A DNA stretch of 38,316 nucleotides, taken from an uncultured Clostridia bacterium (GTDB lineage Bacteria > Bacillota > Clostridia > UBA1381). The stretch is from the NCBI GenBank assembly GCA_947628155.1, contig CANQYQ010000005.1:1-38316 (forward strand), in the 5' to 3' direction. The position numbers and the translations under genes were made by a program. The notes below the pieces were generated by a model. It had not been told where the DNA came from, searched no databases, and was given only the letters and a program-made list of their open reading frames with translations. Of the stretch, positions 6,364-19,608 are shown piece after piece. Each line of letters starts with the position of its first letter. Position 1 is the first letter of the stretch.

Positions 6364-8643
6364 TTATTTCCATATCATATAGTCGGCATTGTTTATTTTC
6401 TGCAATTCTTCTCCGAGATAATCCTTCATATCCTTTCTTGTAAATAATTCCCGCATACTCTCATATGCCTTTTTCTTTACGACCTTTTGCAAATTAAACA
6501 TATGCATATAATCTGTGATCCTGCTATAATCCCGATTTACAATTTCATTTCTTACTGTGTCATACGCGCTGTCAAGAGGCCCATTAATACAATAAATAGT
6601 TTGGAACGTCTTTACGGCATCACCTTTTTTTGCCGCTCCGGACAACCCGTTTACAGTATCCTTAGCAAACGTAACAAACCCGAAAGCTCCGCCTGTTACG
6701 GTGTTCATAATTTTCCCGCCTCCGATTGCTGCCGCCGACTCCGCAAGATTATGCGCGGACATTAGCCATTTAGAAGAATATTCGTCTTCTATGGAATCGA
6801 GTACATCATATAGAGTATCGTCTGTTATATCAGCCTCCTTGAGACTGCTTCTCATTGATTCTATGTAACCAATTCCGTTAGTGTAATCAGATAACATGGT
6901 GCATATTACATCATTGCCAAGCTTCGCTAAATCTAAAACATTCCCGGATACACGAGCGGCCTCATTTAACTTGTATAATGCGGAAGCAGTCCCAACAGAT
7001 AAATTCCCGAAGCGTTCCGTATCGGATAAATCAATAAATTTGCCTGGTTGACTAGCTAATGATTTAACATAATTTGCAACCTTGATTTCCCCGGATAAAT
7101 CAACAGCGCTGACCTCGGGAAGCTCAGCGAATATTTCAAGCAGCATATTCTTTATCATATACTCGTCATTATCCATGCCGGAGAATAAATTTTTAACAGA
7201 TAACCACGTATCGTTCCAGGAAATAGCCGCAGCGTCAATATACGGATTTCTTCTTTCAAATTCTTCATTTATGTTGTCAGAATAACTACTAAAATTGCTT
7301 GCTTCAAAAATAACACTATACATTGCATTCAGTTTTGCAACATCAACATCTGTGATTATTTGTTTTGGTTTGTCAGTATATTCGATAGATACAACATATG
7401 CATCCCCGTCCCACGATACTTCCGCACCTAAGCATTCCGCAACCGCGCGAAGCGGAACGAGGGTCCTATCCCCGATTATTTGAGGCGGAACATCAGACGA
7501 AACATATTCCCAAGTATCCATGGGAAGCTCTCTGATAACATTGATAGTGTTTTTATTAATATCCAATTTCAGTATGCGATCAGGATGCTGGATCAATGCG
7601 GACTGCAGCCTATCACACCACGTAACTTTATCACCCATAGCCTCCGCAATGGCACGAATCGGTACCATAACTCTATCATTGATCATAACCGGCGGTTGGT
7701 CAAACGATATTTCAGAGCCATTTAATTCAACTTTAATTGTTCTGCTTATAGGTACTTCTTCATGTGTATTTGATATGTATTCATATTCCGTGTCAGGATC
7801 AAAAAAAACTTTTTCTCCGTCAGGCAGATGTGATAAAGCATCATTGAAACGCTTATCAACATATACCCAATTTGAATCTCCACTTTCATGATGAAAAGTT
7901 AAAATATTGTTGTTCAATGAATATCTTTGCCCTTGCGCATATATATTCCCGGCAGAATCATACTCTATATAAGTACCATCTTTATTAAACTGATACTTTT
8001 TATAATCTCCGCAGTCGTAATACCAATAATATCTCGTTAAATAATCAATGTCAATATCTTCCGTTTTTATATCTGATCCAAATTCACCTGTTGTTTCATC
8101 GTAAAAATACTCCACTCCCGAATAGTCCGTTATATTATAAGCATAATAATGGCCTGTTTCAGCATGAAAATTTGTCACCTTTTCAGATATTGCCGGGAAA
8201 TAAGCTTCTCCGTTTCTGCAGCCGCAAATCAGAGAAACGACCCGCCTGTCTTGCTCTTGATTGCATACTAAAAATATTTGATCGCCGGCATAGACCAGTT
8301 CCGGTTCAAGCAACTCATCTCGACAATATAGTCCTTCTTTAACAAGCTTATATGTACCATCCGAATTGATAAACCACAATTTACCGTTTTCTATGCCTTC
8401 TTCCCAAATACCTGATATTGCATAACCCTCTTGCCGGCCGTCTCCATCATAATCATAAGCATAACAAAATCTACAATTGATTACATTGTTGTTTAGATCC
8501 GTATATCCTTGTTCTACCAAGCTTGTATTATTAAAAGCGTCCTTTGTTGCTTTTTGGGGGTTATCGTACGCAAAAATATGCGTGTTACAAAGAAAACAGC
8601 ATATTAAAGATAATATAGAAAACCTTAAAATTCTTTTCTTCAT
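6364..8643 (-). CDS. Secreted protein with copper-amine-oxidase N-like (stalk) domains
   Basis: N-term signal peptide MKKRILRFSILSLICCFLCNTHIFA; two stalk-type segments (MINDRVMVPIRAIAEAMGDKVTW... and IIGDRTLVPLRAVAECLGAEVSWDG); long uncharacterised helical C-terminus. Confidence 0.8.
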   Translation of the reverse strand: MKKRILRFSILSLICCFLCNTHIFAYDNPQKATKDAFNNTSLVEQGYTDLNNNVINCRFCYAYDYDGDGRQEGYAISGIWEEGIENGKLWFINSDGTYKLVKEGLYCRDELLEPELVYAGDQIFLVCNQEQDRRVVSLICGCRNGEAYFPAISEKVTNFHAETGHYYAYNITDYSGVEYFYDETTGEFGSDIKTEDIDIDYLTRYYWYYDCGDYKKYQFNKDGTYIEYDSAGNIYAQGQRYSLNNNILTFHHESGDSNWVYVDKRFNDALSHLPDGEKVFFDPDTEYEYISNTHEEVPISRTIKVELNGSEISFDQPPVMINDRVMVPIRAIAEAMGDKVTWCDRLQSALIQHPDRILKLDINKNTINVIRELPMDTWEYVSSDVPPQIIGDRTLVPLRAVAECLGAEVSWDGDAYVVSIEYTDKPKQIITDVDVAKLNAMYSVIFEASNFSSYSDNINEEFERRNPYIDAAAISWNDTWLSVKNLFSGMDNDEYMIKNMLLEIFAELPEVSAVDLSGEIKVANYVKSLASQPGKFIDLSDTERFGNLSVGTASALYKLNEAARVSGNVLDLAKLGNDVICTMLSDYTNGIGYIESMRSSLKEADITDDTLYDVLDSIEDEYSSKWLMSAHNLAESAAAIGGGKIMNTVTGGAFGFVTFAKDTVNGLSGAAKKGDAVKTFQTIYCINGPLDSAYDTVRNEIVNRDYSRITDYMHMFNLQKVVKKKAYESMRELFTRKDMKDYLGEELQKINNADYMIWK

Positions 8644-8900
8644 TGTGAAAATCCTCCTTGGTTAAGTGGAAATATTAAAAAAATCATAGCCGCATTACAC
8701 AGCTAAAAAACATTATCTTGATTTAATGCTGCCGCGCACATCATACACAAATAAAAATCAGCCAAGTATGATTGTAAAAGCGTGCGCCTTTAACAAAAGC
8801 ACAGGCTTAAGTTGATTTCTATTCAAAATGTACTTTGCATATATAATATATCATATACAGCATAATTTGTAAAGATGCGAAATTGGTATTTTCCCCGATT
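8644..8900 (-). promoter_or_regulatory. Promoter plus 5' leader, copy A of a duplicated element (homologous to 16865-17124 on + strand)
   Basis: Minus-strand blocks TTCGCATCTTTACAAA (8866-8881), TAAAGGCGCACGCTTT (8777-8792), GCAGCATTAAATCAA (8718-8732) all recur in the same order and spacing upstream of 17125. Confidence 0.7.
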
Positions 8901-8986: not shown

Positions 8987-10069
8987 TTATAATGTCATCG
9001 GGTCGATGCTTATTTTCATAATAGCACTCGACAGCGCTATAATCGCAAATAATATTCCGAGAAGCGCCGTTTTTGACACTTCAATGTGCAGCTTGCGTGA
9101 TACTCGTATACTTTTGATTCCACAGCACAATGCCGCAATCCCAAGAATCAACTCAATAAAACCGATTCCTCGGTACATACCTGTCAAGCCGTATATAATT
9201 ATCGAACTAAATGCAATAATTAAACTGAAATTTGCATACTGTTCGACGCTTTTGTCTGTTCTTACAACCTTGTTTTTGCTCTTTACCTTCGGCCGGCTGA
9301 CGGCCCGATTGGTAATTGATTCAAGCTTATGCGCACACGCCGGGCACAAACCGTCCGTCAATTCGTCTGACGGGAAAGCTCCCGCACACATTCGGCACAC
9401 CGCATGCCCCGGCTGTATTTGCGCCGTCTGCGTTTGCACCGTCTGCGTTTGCACCGTCTGCGTTTGATTTGTTGTTTTGTGTATATCTGTCGAGGTGTTG
9501 TCCTTTTGCTCGGTCTGTAAAGGCGTATCTGAATCAGTTTTATTGTTTGATTCACTCGGCTGATCGCAAAAATCCGCAACGGATAAAATAAGCTTCGTTC
9601 CATCTGTGATAAATTCGTTTATACCGAGTCCGGCTGCCGATTCCCAAAACGATGAGCCGGGATCTGCAATCTCTTTTATATAAAACACTGTTTCACTGTA
9701 TTTATGCGTCAGCGCTTGAACTGCCTTCTCGGCCGTCGGCTGCTCCGTGTATACCAGCATATATTTATCTTTATACAAATACGGTGCTTCAGCCTGCTTT
9801 TCATAAATCACATATTTTTTCTCATTCGTTGTTTTATAAATAACTTGTCTGCGAATATTACGCATATTTTTTATGCAGAGGTCTCTTTTTTCATCGGATA
9901 CGTATGTTAAATATCTATCCGTGTTGCAGTAAATAACAGCTAATTCGCTGCAGGAAAGATCGTTGAGCTCTTCGGCTCTGAGCTCCATACCGTTGTCGGT
10001 TGGTTTTTGTATGTATTTTTCGCATAAGCTTTGTATTTTTTCATTGGAAATTTCCTTAGCTAAACGCAT
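8987..10069 (-). CDS. Putative membrane protein: N-term SseB-like domain, TQTVQ repeat, zinc ribbon, C-term transmembrane segments
   Basis: APYLYKDKYMLVYTEQPTAEKAVQAL and GINEFITDGTKLIL resemble SseB-like domains; CRMCAGAFPSDELTDGLCPAC zinc ribbon; hydrophobic FSLIIAFSSIIIYGLTGMYRGIGFIELILGIAALCCG and TALLGILFAIIALSSAI. Confidence 0.5.
   Translation of the reverse strand: MRLAKEISNEKIQSLCEKYIQKPTDNGMELRAEELNDLSCSELAVIYCNTDRYLTYVSDEKRDLCIKNMRNIRRQVIYKTTNEKKYVIYEKQAEAPYLYKDKYMLVYTEQPTAEKAVQALTHKYSETVFYIKEIADPGSSFWESAAGLGINEFITDGTKLILSVADFCDQPSESNNKTDSDTPLQTEQKDNTSTDIHKTTNQTQTVQTQTVQTQTAQIQPGHAVCRMCAGAFPSDELTDGLCPACAHKLESITNRAVSRPKVKSKNKVVRTDKSVEQYANFSLIIAFSSIIIYGLTGMYRGIGFIELILGIAALCCGIKSIRVSRKLHIEVSKTALLGILFAIIALSSAIMKISIDPMTL
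9422..9465. repeat. Short 15-bp tandem repeat, about 3 copies
   Basis: Repeat unit ACCGTCTGCGTTTGC on + strand, encoding TQTVQ on - strand inside the 8987-10069 ORF. Confidence 0.9.
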
Positions 10070-10158: not shown

Positions 10159-11193
10159 TTATTCGAGGGAAAAAAGACTCATAACAGCATCCGCTGACTT
10201 TTTAAACCTTTCCTGATAATCTCCCGAAATACAGATATAAGCTTTATTATGCTCATCCAAGATCTGCTTGATTCGATTTGAATATTTCTCCCTGTTATCC
10301 CGGATCTCGTCTCTTCTGTCTCCGTCCTGAACAAAAGCGACGTCCGGCTCTAAAAACATAATAAGGTCATATTCGTTTAAACCGTCGATCGCATCGGATA
10401 ATGCCTTATTTTTCTTAATAAGGGGATCCTTCAGAAACTCCATATAAAACTGCGTCACCAACGCGTCTGTGTCTATAAATAAAACCTTATTGCTGCAGGC
10501 TGCGGCCTTCAATTCATTAAGCTTATGCTGCAGCAGTATTTCCGTGAAGTCCTCCGACAGCATCAATAGATCCGTCCCGGATCTCTCGGACAAATCACGC
10601 CCCGCCTCGTCAATATAATTGGTATTGAAATAATTGGAAAGATTGATGGTCAGCGTGGATTTTCCGGTGCTCTCGCTGCCGATAAGCATAACCTTTTTCA
10701 CATAATACGGTTTTACCAGGTTCGGGAGCCAATCCCAGTGCTTATACGGGTTCTTTCTGATTTCCGTGGACGACGGTTCGCTTCTTTCGAAGATATACAG
10801 CTCGCTTTCCGGATAACACACATTCCAGAAGCTGTGTTCGTCATAATCGCTTCCGCAGAATACCACGTCAATTTTTTCCCCGATTGTTTTCTTTATTTTA
10901 GCGGCGTCGGCCATCCAATATTCTTTTGTATATTCCTCTTTTGTCGCCGCGTTATCGGTCAGCGTAATAATTTTCACATTTCCTATATGCTTTGTAAGCT
11001 GATACAGCCAGCGATACCGTATCCGCGGATCAATTTCCTTTCTGTTTGTTCCTATGCTAAGAACAATATATAATTGTTCGCACATATTCGCCGCTTGAAT
11101 TATGCAGCTAACATGCCCTGTATGCAGCGGATTGAACGCTCCGCCGTACATTCCTGTTTTATATCTCATGATTGCTTTGCCTCCCTGTTCCAT
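10159..11193 (-). CDS. nadR: NadR-like bifunctional NMN adenylyltransferase / ribosylnicotinamide kinase (no N-terminal HTH)
   Basis: GMYGGAFNPLHTGHVSCIIQAA (HxGH nucleotidyltransferase) plus C-terminal kinase Walker A LIGSESTGKSTLTINL; adjacent to pnuC. Confidence 0.88.
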   Translation of the reverse strand: MEQGGKAIMRYKTGMYGGAFNPLHTGHVSCIIQAANMCEQLYIVLSIGTNRKEIDPRIRYRWLYQLTKHIGNVKIITLTDNAATKEEYTKEYWMADAAKIKKTIGEKIDVVFCGSDYDEHSFWNVCYPESELYIFERSEPSSTEIRKNPYKHWDWLPNLVKPYYVKKVMLIGSESTGKSTLTINLSNYFNTNYIDEAGRDLSERSGTDLLMLSEDFTEILLQHKLNELKAAACSNKVLFIDTDALVTQFYMEFLKDPLIKKNKALSDAIDGLNEYDLIMFLEPDVAFVQDGDRRDEIRDNREKYSNRIKQILDEHNKAYICISGDYQERFKKSADAVMSLFSLE

Positions 11194-11858
11194 TTGATAA
11201 ACATAATAACTGCGTTAATTAAGTAAATGCTCCACATCGCAAGCGTGGCAATGCTTTCTCCGCCGGCGGCAAAATTTACTCCCCACATAATAACCGTCAC
11301 TACATCCACGATAATCCATAAAATCCATTGCTCCGTGAGTCTGCGTACAGACAAAATCTGCGCCGCAACGGATACTACAGTACTCATGCTGTCAATATAC
11401 GGCAGATTGCCGCCGAGCGATTTTAAAACAACACCGTATCCGTAAATGCATGCGGCCGTGATGATATATATAACCATCCCTTTTTTCAATGGAAGCTTTT
11501 TCTTTTCCACCTCTCCCGTTTCTTTGTTCATATGCTTTTTCCATGCCGCCCATCCCACAAAATTCATCGGGAAATAATAAATCAGGTTTAACATGACTTC
11601 ACCGTAATACTTTGCGTTAAAAGATACGTACGCGTATAACACGACATTGGCAATGCCGAACAAAAAAGACGAGCGTTTTCCCTTTCCGGTAAAAATAACG
11701 CACCATATTCCGGTAAGAGCGGTCATAATACCGATCAGCGAATCGTGCCAGTAAAGCGACACGCCAAGAATAACCGCGGTGGCAATGATAAGCCATATGA
11801 TGTCAATGCGCTTCCATCCCGTTATCTCATCCTTAAAAAATTCCTTAAGCTGTTTCAT
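11166..11858 (-). CDS. pnuC: Nicotinamide riboside transporter PnuC
   Basis: 230-aa membrane protein; FLFGIANVVLYAYVSFNAKYYGEVMLNLIYYFPMNFVGWAAWKKH and LTEQWILWIIVDVVTVIMW match the PnuC family; overlaps nadR. Confidence 0.9.
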   Translation of the reverse strand: MKQLKEFFKDEITGWKRIDIIWLIIATAVILGVSLYWHDSLIGIMTALTGIWCVIFTGKGKRSSFLFGIANVVLYAYVSFNAKYYGEVMLNLIYYFPMNFVGWAAWKKHMNKETGEVEKKKLPLKKGMVIYIITAACIYGYGVVLKSLGGNLPYIDSMSTVVSVAAQILSVRRLTEQWILWIIVDVVTVIMWGVNFAAGGESIATLAMWSIYLINAVIMFIKWNREAKQS

Positions 11859-16864: not shown

Positions 16865-17124
16865 AAATCAGAAAAATGCCAAATTCGCATCTTTACAAAA
16901 TGCGGCATGTATGGTAATATAATATATGCGACATACTTTAATAAGAATATTAAAACGGTTTGCGCTTTGCTAAAGGCGCACGCTTTGATTATCATACCGT
17001 TTTTGATATTCTTGTATGAAAGTGTGTCGCAGCATTAAATCAAAGTGGCGTTTTTGGAGTGTGCCGCTGTGGATTTATGCGGCGCACTTTTTATATTGTA
17101 TACAATATTATCGGAGGAAAAGTT
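16865..17124 (+). promoter_or_regulatory. Promoter plus 5' leader, copy B of a duplicated element
   Basis: TTCGCATCTTTACAAA (16884-16899), TAAAGGCGCACGCTTT (16971-16986), GCAGCATTAAATCAA (17029-17043); same order and spacing (within 2 nt) as copy A; hairpin TGCGCTTT-GCTA-AAGGCGCA. Confidence 0.7.
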
Positions 17125-19608
17125 ATGAAAAAGTTATTAAGTATGATCACGGCAGCAGCAATGCTGATCTGCGCGGTATATACCGCGCCGGTATCGGCGG
17201 ACGAAACGATTACGATATCCACGCTCGCGGAGCTTGAAGCGTTCCGCGACAGCGTAAATGAAGGCGATACGTACGAGGGCAAAATCGTTAAGCTGGCAGC
17301 CGATATTGATATGTCGGAAAAATACGGAGCGGACAAGGGATCGTGGACGCCGATAGGAACAAAATCCATGCCTTTTTCCGGTACATTTGAAGGCGATGAA
17401 CATGAAATAAAAGAGCTTTACATAAACGGTTCGGGATCGGATAAGGGTTTATTCGGCTATGTCAAATACGGAACGATTAAAAATCTCAGCGTATCCGGAG
17501 AGATTATAAGCAGCGGCGACAGCGTCGGCTCAATAGCCGGATATTGCGGAATCAGTACAATCTCCGGCTGCAAAAGCAGCTGTGCGGTATCCGGAAGATA
17601 CTATGCCGCGGGCATAATCGGCTGGGCCGCGGGCGGCTCTGTATCGAACTGCGTCAATGTCGGCACGGTTTGCGCTGAGAAGGGGTATGTTGGCGGCGTA
17701 GTCGGAGAAAGCAATCTCTCTTCATTGGAAAATTGCCGTAACTCGGGTGAAATTTCCGGCAAGGACTATTACACGGGAGGCGTGGCAGGCTGGAATAACG
17801 GGCCGATTGCGAATTGCTCTAACACAGGCAATGTAAACGGCCATTATATTACCGGCGGTATATCGGGAAATAACGGCGGCACGATCGAATACTGCTATAA
17901 TACCGGTTCGGTTTCCGCCACGAGCGGCACGACCGGCGGCATATCCGGAGACAATGACAATACCATTTCCGACTGCTACAACACCGGAACGGTTCTGGGC
18001 TTGAGCACGGTCGGCGGCATAGTGGGATATAACGGGCGCACAGTCAAAAATTGCTATAACACCGGAACGGTGTTCGGCACAAGAGATGAGGAAATTGGCG
18101 GCGTAGCGGGAAGGCACGCTATATCTGAATTTGTGAAAACCGAATTGTCAAGCTGTTACTATCTTGAAGGAGCCGCAAACGGCGGAGCTGCGGGAACAGA
18201 CGCGGAGGGTATGGCGGAGTGCATGACCTTAAGCGATTTTTCCGATATATCTAATTTCAAAAGCTGGAATTTTGAAAGCGTATGGAAAATAGACGCACTG
18301 CTCGGCAGGCCCGTTCTTCGCTCACAGCCGGAAATTACGAATATCATCGAAATATCCACGCTCGCGGAGCTTGAAGCGTTCCGCGACAGCGTAAACGAAG
18401 GCGACACGCACGAGGGCAAAACCGTTAAGCTGACAGCCGATATTGATATGTCGGAAAAATACGGCGCGGACAAGGGATCGTGGACGCCAATAGGAACGGG
18501 CAATAAAAGCTTGATGTATGAAAATCTCACGAACCCCTTTTCCGGAACATTCGACGGTCAAGGGCATAAAATAACAGGTCTTTACATACAAGGTTTAAAT
18601 GACTGTGCCGGACTGTTCGGCGGCATTGACGGAACTGTTAAAAATCTTGCTGTTGACGGCATTGTTTCAGGCGGCGAATGCATCGGCGGAATAGTCGGCG
18701 GCAATCAGGGAACTATTGAAAAATGCCGATTTTCCGGCAGCGTTTCCGGTACAGATTTTGTCGGCGGAATAGCCGGGCAGAGCATGGGTGTTCACGACAG
18801 CAATTGGAATTACTCCCACACGGAGATTGCCGACTGCTACAGCACGGCGGAAATTACCGCGTCGGGTCATGCCGCCGGCGGCATAGCGGGCAGCGGAGGC
18901 GGAAACGATACCGCAGCGCGCTGCTATAATGCGGGAAAAATAACAAGCGAAGGCGCGTCTGATTTTGCGGGAGGCGTATACGGCATCGCGGACGGCTCGG
19001 GTGTCACGGATTGCTATTATCTTGAGGGAACCGCCGACAGGGGCTTCTGCTCCGAGGGCGGCGCGGATCCCGTAAAAGCTCTTACAGCCGCGCAGCTTGC
19101 TGATAAGAGCAGCTTTGCAAATTGGGATTTTGAAAATACATGGGCAATGGACAATTCGCTCGGCAGACCGGTTTTGGCGTATGAGTTAGATTCATCCACG
19201 ACGGAAACACCGATACCAACGGAAACGCCGACAACCGAGCCTACGTTAACGCCAACTGAGCAGCCGACGATTAGGCCGACGGAGCAGCCGACAGCAGCAC
19301 CGACAACCGAGCCTACGGAAACACCGAAGCCGTATAATTATCCGTATAAAATAGTGTCGGCAAAAACCGATAACAACACTGCTGTATTCAGCATAGAAAA
19401 GTATGAATCCGCTTCGCCCGCACAGGTTATTTTTGCCGAATATGATGGCGGCGCGCTCAAACGAGTACAGATTGAAGGTATTTTGCCCAATGAAGAAGAT
19501 AATTTCACAAGGACGTTTGAATATTCCGGCGGCGATTATAAGGCGTTTATCTGGGACGCTCCCGGCACAATGACGCCTCTTGCCGAAGCGTGGGTGTATA
19601 AGGAGTAA
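17125..19608 (+). CDS. Secreted GLUG-motif repeat protein with Pro/Thr-rich linker
   Basis: Signal peptide MKKLLSMITAAAMLICAVYTAPVSA starting at 17125; repeated GGIxGxNxGTIxxCYNTGxV GLUG-like units; PTETPTTEPTLTPTEQPT linker. Confidence 0.85.
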   Translation: MKKLLSMITAAAMLICAVYTAPVSADETITISTLAELEAFRDSVNEGDTYEGKIVKLAADIDMSEKYGADKGSWTPIGTKSMPFSGTFEGDEHEIKELYINGSGSDKGLFGYVKYGTIKNLSVSGEIISSGDSVGSIAGYCGISTISGCKSSCAVSGRYYAAGIIGWAAGGSVSNCVNVGTVCAEKGYVGGVVGESNLSSLENCRNSGEISGKDYYTGGVAGWNNGPIANCSNTGNVNGHYITGGISGNNGGTIEYCYNTGSVSATSGTTGGISGDNDNTISDCYNTGTVLGLSTVGGIVGYNGRTVKNCYNTGTVFGTRDEEIGGVAGRHAISEFVKTELSSCYYLEGAANGGAAGTDAEGMAECMTLSDFSDISNFKSWNFESVWKIDALLGRPVLRSQPEITNIIEISTLAELEAFRDSVNEGDTHEGKTVKLTADIDMSEKYGADKGSWTPIGTGNKSLMYENLTNPFSGTFDGQGHKITGLYIQGLNDCAGLFGGIDGTVKNLAVDGIVSGGECIGGIVGGNQGTIEKCRFSGSVSGTDFVGGIAGQSMGVHDSNWNYSHTEIADCYSTAEITASGHAAGGIAGSGGGNDTAARCYNAGKITSEGASDFAGGVYGIADGSGVTDCYYLEGTADRGFCSEGGADPVKALTAAQLADKSSFANWDFENTWAMDNSLGRPVLAYELDSSTTETPIPTETPTTEPTLTPTEQPTIRPTEQPTAAPTTEPTETPKPYNYPYKIVSAKTDNNTAVFSIEKYESASPAQVIFAEYDGGALKRVQIEGILPNEEDNFTRTFEYSGGDYKAFIWDAPGTMTPLAEAWVYKE
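17215..17360 (+). repeat. Intragenic direct repeat copy 1 (second copy at 18352-18497)
   Basis: 146-bp segment atatccacgctcgcggagcttgaagc...ccgataggaac, about 7 mismatches to the second copy by eye. Confidence 0.9.
18352..18497 (+). repeat. Intragenic direct repeat copy 2
   Basis: Nearly identical to 17215-17360; encodes ISTLAELEAFRDSVNEGDTHEGKTVKLTADIDMSEKYGADKGSWTPIGT. Confidence 0.9.

Follow-up and report, generated by a model that had tools for sequence, protein, structure and literature searches.

A promoter–RNA–terminator cassette upstream of surface-protein genes in Clostridia, probably acting as a transcription attenuator

A leader present twice in one window

Why do two unrelated genes for secreted proteins share a long upstream region in an uncultured Clostridia bacterium? 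The window, that is, the whole 38,316-nt stretch of DNA analysed (contig CANQYQ010000005.1 of assembly GCA_947628155.1), carries one copy of this region on each strand, here named A and B. A preliminary description made from the sequence had placed three blocks upstream of both genes, with distances of 89 vs 87 nt between TTCGCATC and TAAAGGCG (copy A vs copy B) and of 60 vs 58 nt between TAAAGGCG and GCAGCATT. Blocks and spacings lie where it placed them, and the two copies align with 73% identity (E=2e-17). The promoters read in front of both leaders were also recovered (TTTACA-N17-TATATT in A, TTTACA-N17-TAATAT in B), and an intrinsic terminator lies 3' of the RNA.

Homologues were collected using two covariance models, R1, built from 32 copies, and R2, built from 99. 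Pairings were additionally assessed by partner swapping in two copy sets: the stability of each native pair was compared with that of pairs formed between one of its strands and the partner strands taken from other copies. The features of the two copies are as follows.

Copy B, intact, and its gene
16892..16920, plus strand: promoter TTTACA, 17-nt spacer, TG before the -10 element, TAATAT (sequence)
16926..17092, plus strand: complete RNA unit, from P1 to the U-tract of the terminator (R1, 164 bits; R2, 146.9 bits, E=8.4e-23)
16928..16938, plus strand: 5' strand of P1a, GCGACATACTT, partner 17020-17030 (fold, covariation)
16945..16958, plus strand: 5' strand of P1b, partner 16997-17011 (fold; P1b partner-swap z=-33.6)
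16961..16980, plus strand: P2 hairpin, TGCGCTTT-GCTA-AAGGCGCA, with a GNNA-type loop (fold, loop conservation)
16972..16990, plus strand: strand b, the 3' strand of P2 plus CGCTTTGATT, able to pair with c (b:c covariation, partner swap)
16997..17011, plus strand: 3' strand of P1b (fold, partner swap)
17020..17030, plus strand: 3' strand of P1a, AAGTGTGTCGC (fold, covariation)
17038..17055, plus strand: strand c, AATCAAAGTGGCGTTTTT, partner of b or d (covariation, partner swap)
17059..17068, plus strand: strand d, the 5' arm of the terminator and also the antiterminator partner of c (c:d partner swap)
17079..17092, plus strand: strand e and U-tract, the 3' arm of the terminator (d:e partner-swap z=-20.4)
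17125..19608, plus strand: downstream gene for a secreted GLUG-repeat protein, starting 32 nt past the U-tract

Copy A, decayed, and its gene
8845..8873, minus strand: promoter TTTACA-N17-TATATT (sequence)
8677..8840, minus strand: decayed member of the RNA family (R1, 76.4 bits, E=4.7e-11)
8783..8803, minus strand: P2 hairpin TGTGCTTT/AAGGCGCA, kept
8687..8705, minus strand: residual terminator hairpin TAGCTG...CGGCTA, followed by T7
6364..8643, minus strand: gene 3' of copy A for a secreted protein with a stalk (copper-amine-oxidase N-like) domain, its ATG 33 nt past the unit

The preliminary description had centred on copy A. This copy does belong to the family, but it is degenerate, with P1b and the pairings b:c and c:d largely lost; the intact copy is the one at 16926-17092. 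Compared with shuffles, the fold of copy B has a z-score of -7.4, and that of copy A only -1.9. Copy A has the weakest P1b and b:c of 98 copies; its P1a, c:d and terminator rank in the lowest 3%, while P2 and the promoter are retained. Its gene, whose product was assigned the stalk domain by reading of the sequence and not by a listed family match, is probably no longer under the control of the leader. Because copy A is decayed, the conclusions below rest on copy B and its homologues.

Just upstream of copy A, a gene at 8987-10069 (minus strand) encodes a protein with a short run of TQTVQ repeats, possibly variable in length. Further on, at 10159-11858 (minus strand), the genes for a NadR-like adenylyltransferase/kinase and a PnuC-like transporter overlap; as read from the sequence, they look like an ordinary NAD salvage pair.

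Each copy of the family is organised as a cassette, consisting of an extended -10 promoter, an RNA running from the start site, an intrinsic terminator and usually then a ribosome-binding site. Promoter scores of at least 9 out of 12 were obtained for 88% of 216 upstream regions, compared with 27% of shuffles, and 95% of the regions reaching this score have TG at -15/-14. In 177 out of 190 scored promoters, the distance to the unit is 4-5 nt. Given this fixed spacing, the predicted RNA starts essentially at P1; transcription thus probably begins upstream of the conserved blocks, and not downstream of them.

The long helix P1 consists of two parts, P1a and P1b, and contains a conserved A/U-rich bulge. 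The hairpin P2 lies within the loop of P1 and is capped by U-GNNA-AA in 167 out of 220 copies (13% of shuffles). P1 is followed by GCARCA, by strand c, which ends in a conserved U-tract, and by the strong terminator d:e. The RNAalifold consensus of alignment A2 missed P1, because the variable middle of this helix was misaligned; R1 was therefore given a hand-set structure of P1, P2 and terminator, which was afterwards tested on copies from other families. In 46 such copies, 26 of the 30 pairs showed two-sided changes, 96.9% of the cells were paired and 286 cells changed on both sides, compared with 70 in shuffles; this alignment was fitted to the tested structure and thus favours it, with slid controls giving 25-50% paired cells. 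The hairpin first noticed as TGYGCTTT/AAGGCGCA corresponds to P2 and covaries, with two-sided changes in five out of five pairs. The CAUAC...GUAUG pair, also noticed at the outset, gained independent support from partner swapping (z=-7.9 in 98 copies and -5.5 in 46), and in many copies the GUAUG strand has the 5' strand of P1 as an alternative partner. Promoter distance, start-codon distance and covariation together show that the leader 5' of the gene concerned contains a conserved RNA structure, as riboswitch leaders do.

Competing pairings and a proposed switch

The helices, the position of the promoter and the placement before genes are accompanied by a chain of competing pairings, in which b pairs with c, c with the 5' arm of the terminator (d), and d with e. 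Strand b comprises the 3' strand of P2 and the neighbouring GCUUUGAUU, and is complementary to c across the base of P1, as in locus L267, where AAAAAUGUAUGCUUUGGU faces ACCGAAGUGAUACAUUUUU. Since the long P1 encloses strands a and b, b:c forms a pseudoknot with P1. An example of c:d is found in locus L110, where CAAAGCUGCG faces CGCGGCUUUG. Neither pairing is part of the structures of R1 and R2, and they were therefore not fitted.

In alignment A6, 90.6% of the b:c cells were paired and 43 changed on both sides, compared with 15.3 in shuffles; all 500 shuffles stayed below 43. Native pairs were more stable than swapped ones in both copy sets, for b:c (z=-14.1 and -10.2) as well as for c:d (z=-16.4 and -5.7), though shuffles and swaps correct for relatedness only in part. 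Four control combinations showed no effect in the partner swap, namely S1:T5 (+2.4), a:c (-0.1), b:d (0.9) and P1a5:c (-0.5). The fifth, c:e, was not clean (z=-4.2), probably as a consequence of c and e each following d. In A6, columns 99-103 covary with the 5' strand of P2 and also with strand c, as alternative structures predict, and c:d covaries too. In the wider families c:d is weaker, with 74% of its cells paired and two-sided changes not above those of shuffles. In 99% of the copies, the c-d segment that precedes strand e is predicted to form a hairpin with an energy of at most -5 kcal/mol; addition of e shifts the median energy of the segment from -15.0 to -19.2, making it about 4 kcal/mol more stable. 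Hence b:c, c:d and d:e share strands while their complementarity is kept, which is the arrangement of a mutually exclusive expression platform.

We propose that the leader attenuates transcription in cis and represents a new RNA family, deployed as a promoter–RNA–terminator cassette; this reading is probably correct. RNA polymerase would start at P1 and first transcribe the 5' domain, comprising P1, the P2 hairpin (a:b) and the conserved junction. If b then paired with c, the terminator d:e could form and transcription would stop about 165 nt from the start, leaving the gene off. If b were held in P2, c would be able to pair with d, the terminator would be blocked and the gene would be read. 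The 5' domain may sense the signal itself, in the manner of a riboswitch, the most likely signal being a small molecule or ion. We infer both that such a switch operates in cells and which of its states is on. Taken separately, attenuation in cis is quite likely, whereas direct ligand sensing by the RNA is put forward with slightly less than even confidence. Several observations speak against the attenuator: its targets share no metabolic theme that would name a ligand, tandem copies mostly carry promoters and terminators of their own, which would be superfluous for simple tandem riboswitches, about 14% of the copies lack a clear same-strand gene, and c:d loses strength in the wider families.

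The chain a:b, b:c, c:d and d:e follows the logic of trp attenuation, where translation of a leader peptide and the position of the ribosome would choose between a:b and b:c. A loose scan detected some Shine–Dalgarno (SD)-led frame of eight or more codons in 87 out of 220 copies, which is less than half of them. The 5' strand of P1 begins within a few nucleotides of the inferred start, leaving no room for an early ribosome-binding site. We regard control by a translating ribosome as very improbable here.

The main rival of direct sensing is a protein. An RNA-binding protein settling on the 5' domain, for instance on P2 and its GNNA loop, could hold b and free c for the antiterminator. The small loop of P2 is indeed highly conserved in most copies, a regulon with as many as some 20 unrelated genes in one genome would suit a global regulator protein, and the small conserved proteins among the targets recall binders that regulate their own synthesis. 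Conservation nevertheless extends well beyond P2, to the bulge of P1, the UCAUAC junction, the GCARCA after P1 and the long-range pairing b:c, and none of the genes accompanies all copies. We regard protein-dependent antitermination, of the LicT/RAT, LoaP or ANTAR type, as unlikely, yet as an alternative to be taken seriously; direct sensing by the RNA remains our first choice because the conserved parts are spread over the whole 5' domain.

Distribution, novelty and the nature of the signal

The expectation that this element would have further homologues was borne out, as hundreds were found by the covariance-model searches. A DNA search matched 19 out of 70 genomes of the family to which the window belongs, and R1 raised this to 56 out of 70, a single genome having as many as 23 copies, and matched 75 out of 95 genomes of the order. 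With R2, 99 out of 392 genomes of the class were positive, from 56 of the 222 genera and about 18 families; the class-wide copy numbers are minima, as seven candidates were scored per genome. The window's own genome has a third copy (C) on another contig (C170) and nine places in total at E<=0.1, even two weak ones among them being followed by a gene, after 36 and 19 nt. In a phylum-wide sample of 399 genomes the sole match was the window's own genome. The family therefore appears to be confined to the class Clostridia, bearing in mind that the phylum sample was scored with strict filters, under which the class members drawn in it likewise gave no match.

The named relatives are uncultured Clostridia, in part carrying the label Monoglobus sp. 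or Oscillospiraceae, and mostly metagenome-assembled genomes (MAGs) named 'Lapin', which we take to be of rabbit gut origin. One pattern match among the named relatives belongs to Omnitrophota and may be due to chance.

If the RNA were a selfish or mobile structured repeat, spreading within genomes without regulating any gene, this would account for the many copies per genome, for near-identical copies at unrelated loci and for tandem duplications. Against it stand the strand-specific placement before genes with a ribosome-binding site, the compensatory changes in competing helices and the recurrence of the same target families, such as a Cys-rich small protein, in distant Clostridia. Phages and plasmids yielded no match to the RNA family, and viral contigs none to the exact pattern. 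We thus find an explanation by mobility alone scarcely credible.

Tandem copies do occur, mostly each with its own promoter and terminator. Three tandem cassettes lie close together at each of three loci (L119 in G027:C59, L256 in G359:C138 and L208 in G077:C9). At another locus (L040, G022:C3), two near-identical cassettes are found within about 2 kb; the gene behind one of them starts like the genes of loci L038 and L041, and its frame breaks off after 91 aa. This shared start suggests a duplication or gene conversion of the leader together with the beginning of the gene.

The preliminary description could not match the leader to a known riboswitch class. Rfam 15, which includes c-di-GMP-I/II, T-box and 6S RNA, likewise gave no credible match at E<=5 for the window and a further 17 copy-bearing loci; the same search detected a tRNA in one of these records (L263). 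The proposal of a cis-regulatory RNA or shared regulon element is thus supported, and none of the findings named beforehand as speaking against it (missing homologues and covariation, an exact Rfam match, a transcription start downstream of the blocks) came true.

Several known systems resemble the family in part. The c-di-GMP-I/II riboswitches are present many times in a genome and, in Clostridia, often precede genes for surface proteins. Their regulon is similar, but the new family has no match to them in Rfam and is abundant where GGDEF proteins are absent. T-box leaders are multi-copy transcription-antitermination leaders in Firmicutes; the new family differs in having no Rfam T-box match and in targets that are, as a rule, not amino-acid genes. 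Trp-type attenuators share the overlapping chain of strands (1:2, 2:3, 3:4) that decides on the terminator, whereas here b:c is a pseudoknot with the P1 that encloses a and b, and the family is not tied to one pathway. Transcription-terminating riboswitches, among them orphan candidates (PMC11109978, PMC8632094), are alike in their 5' leader position, their conserved covarying 5' domain and their mutually exclusive antiterminator and terminator. In comparison with these riboswitches, the new family has a promoter at a fixed distance, no Rfam match, and up to some twenty copies per genome before unrelated genes, largely for surface proteins. No fitting description was found in the literature, with published candidate sets, notably that of PMC8040213, compared by description only. 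On this comparison by description, we rate the leader as a previously uncatalogued structured RNA family with an unusual copy number and a promoter-fixed cassette.

As a signal, c-di-GMP is unlikely, because genomes with many RNA copies lack GGDEF proteins. No GGDEF match was obtained in the window's own genome (seven RNA copies at the threshold used there), nor in G004 (8), G008 (8), G050 (7), G036 (5) and G074 (9), whereas G058 and G088 have GGDEF and no RNA match; some of these genomes are incomplete.

Downstream genes

An SD-led start codon was found within 130 nt in 100 out of 153 copies with enough downstream sequence, at a median distance of 33 nt, and a crude rule classified 69 of these 100 gene products as secreted. 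No clear same-strand gene followed 21 of the 153 copies (about 14%). Pfam matches among 142 first downstream proteins were led by LRR_5 (38), copper-amine-oxidase N (14) and SLH (7), followed by DUF6273 (5), CHAP (5), DUF6809 (4) and HTH_3 (2). The targets are mostly surface proteins (BspA-type leucine-rich, stalk, S-layer and CHAP proteins), together with small regulators.

Small proteins that belong to no family also recur behind the RNA. When a 41-aa downstream protein was used as bait, the RNA lay directly upstream on the same strand in 26 out of 30 loci, one of the other four having too little upstream sequence. Such a protein could be a partner or regulator.

These placements bear on whether the product is a stand-alone small RNA of about 165 nt that is terminated and acts in trans, its nearness to genes being a by-product of cassette copying. 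Almost all copies, including those in tandem, carry a promoter of their own and a strong terminator, the RNA starts at the promoter and some copies lack a same-strand gene, all of which would fit. But a ribosome-binding site and start codon typically follow the U-tract (median 33 nt), the association with one small-protein family holds in 26 of 30 loci, and the complementarity that c keeps with b as well as with d would be purposeless in a simple small RNA. We therefore judge action in trans improbable, and return to attenuation in cis.

If the attenuator senses its signal directly, it is possible, though we hold this more tentatively still than direct sensing as such, that the family is a new riboswitch class confined to Clostridia, which responds to an unrecognised general signal (a second messenger other than c-di-GMP, or a widespread metabolite or ion) and governs a large regulon of the cell surface, with as many as some 20 genes in one genome. 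The RNA is present in about a quarter of the sampled genomes of the class and yet absent from Rfam, so that a sizeable regulon has been overlooked. It would place under one signal the adhesin-like leucine-rich, S-layer and stalk proteins, the small regulators of transcription and a number of uncharacterised small proteins, and naming this signal would show which cue these gut bacteria, for the most part uncultured, answer to at the cell surface. The logic of the strands allows direct and cheap tests.

Three groups of small proteins stand out. The 41-aa bait belongs to a family of small, probably helical proteins of about 40-60 aa with the sequence MENYKEMYLKLFDAVSDAIETLQ... (L282-L311, e.g. 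L282:1501-1623, minus strand), the member tested having no Pfam match. A Cys-rich small protein (MIIDVTGIELTPGNGG...ECCCDEC) is encoded directly behind the RNA at L240 (contig C216 of the window's own genome), L252, L267 and L268, and is thus a target in this genome and in other families; its L267 member had no Pfam match. Proteins of 80-86 aa ending in SDFDAIEEIVNIFEKY...RHDF, one member of which was tested and had no Pfam match, lie behind the RNA across families (L279, L277, L107, L151 and L109), and an 86-residue family has the RNA upstream in about 12 out of 30 loci.
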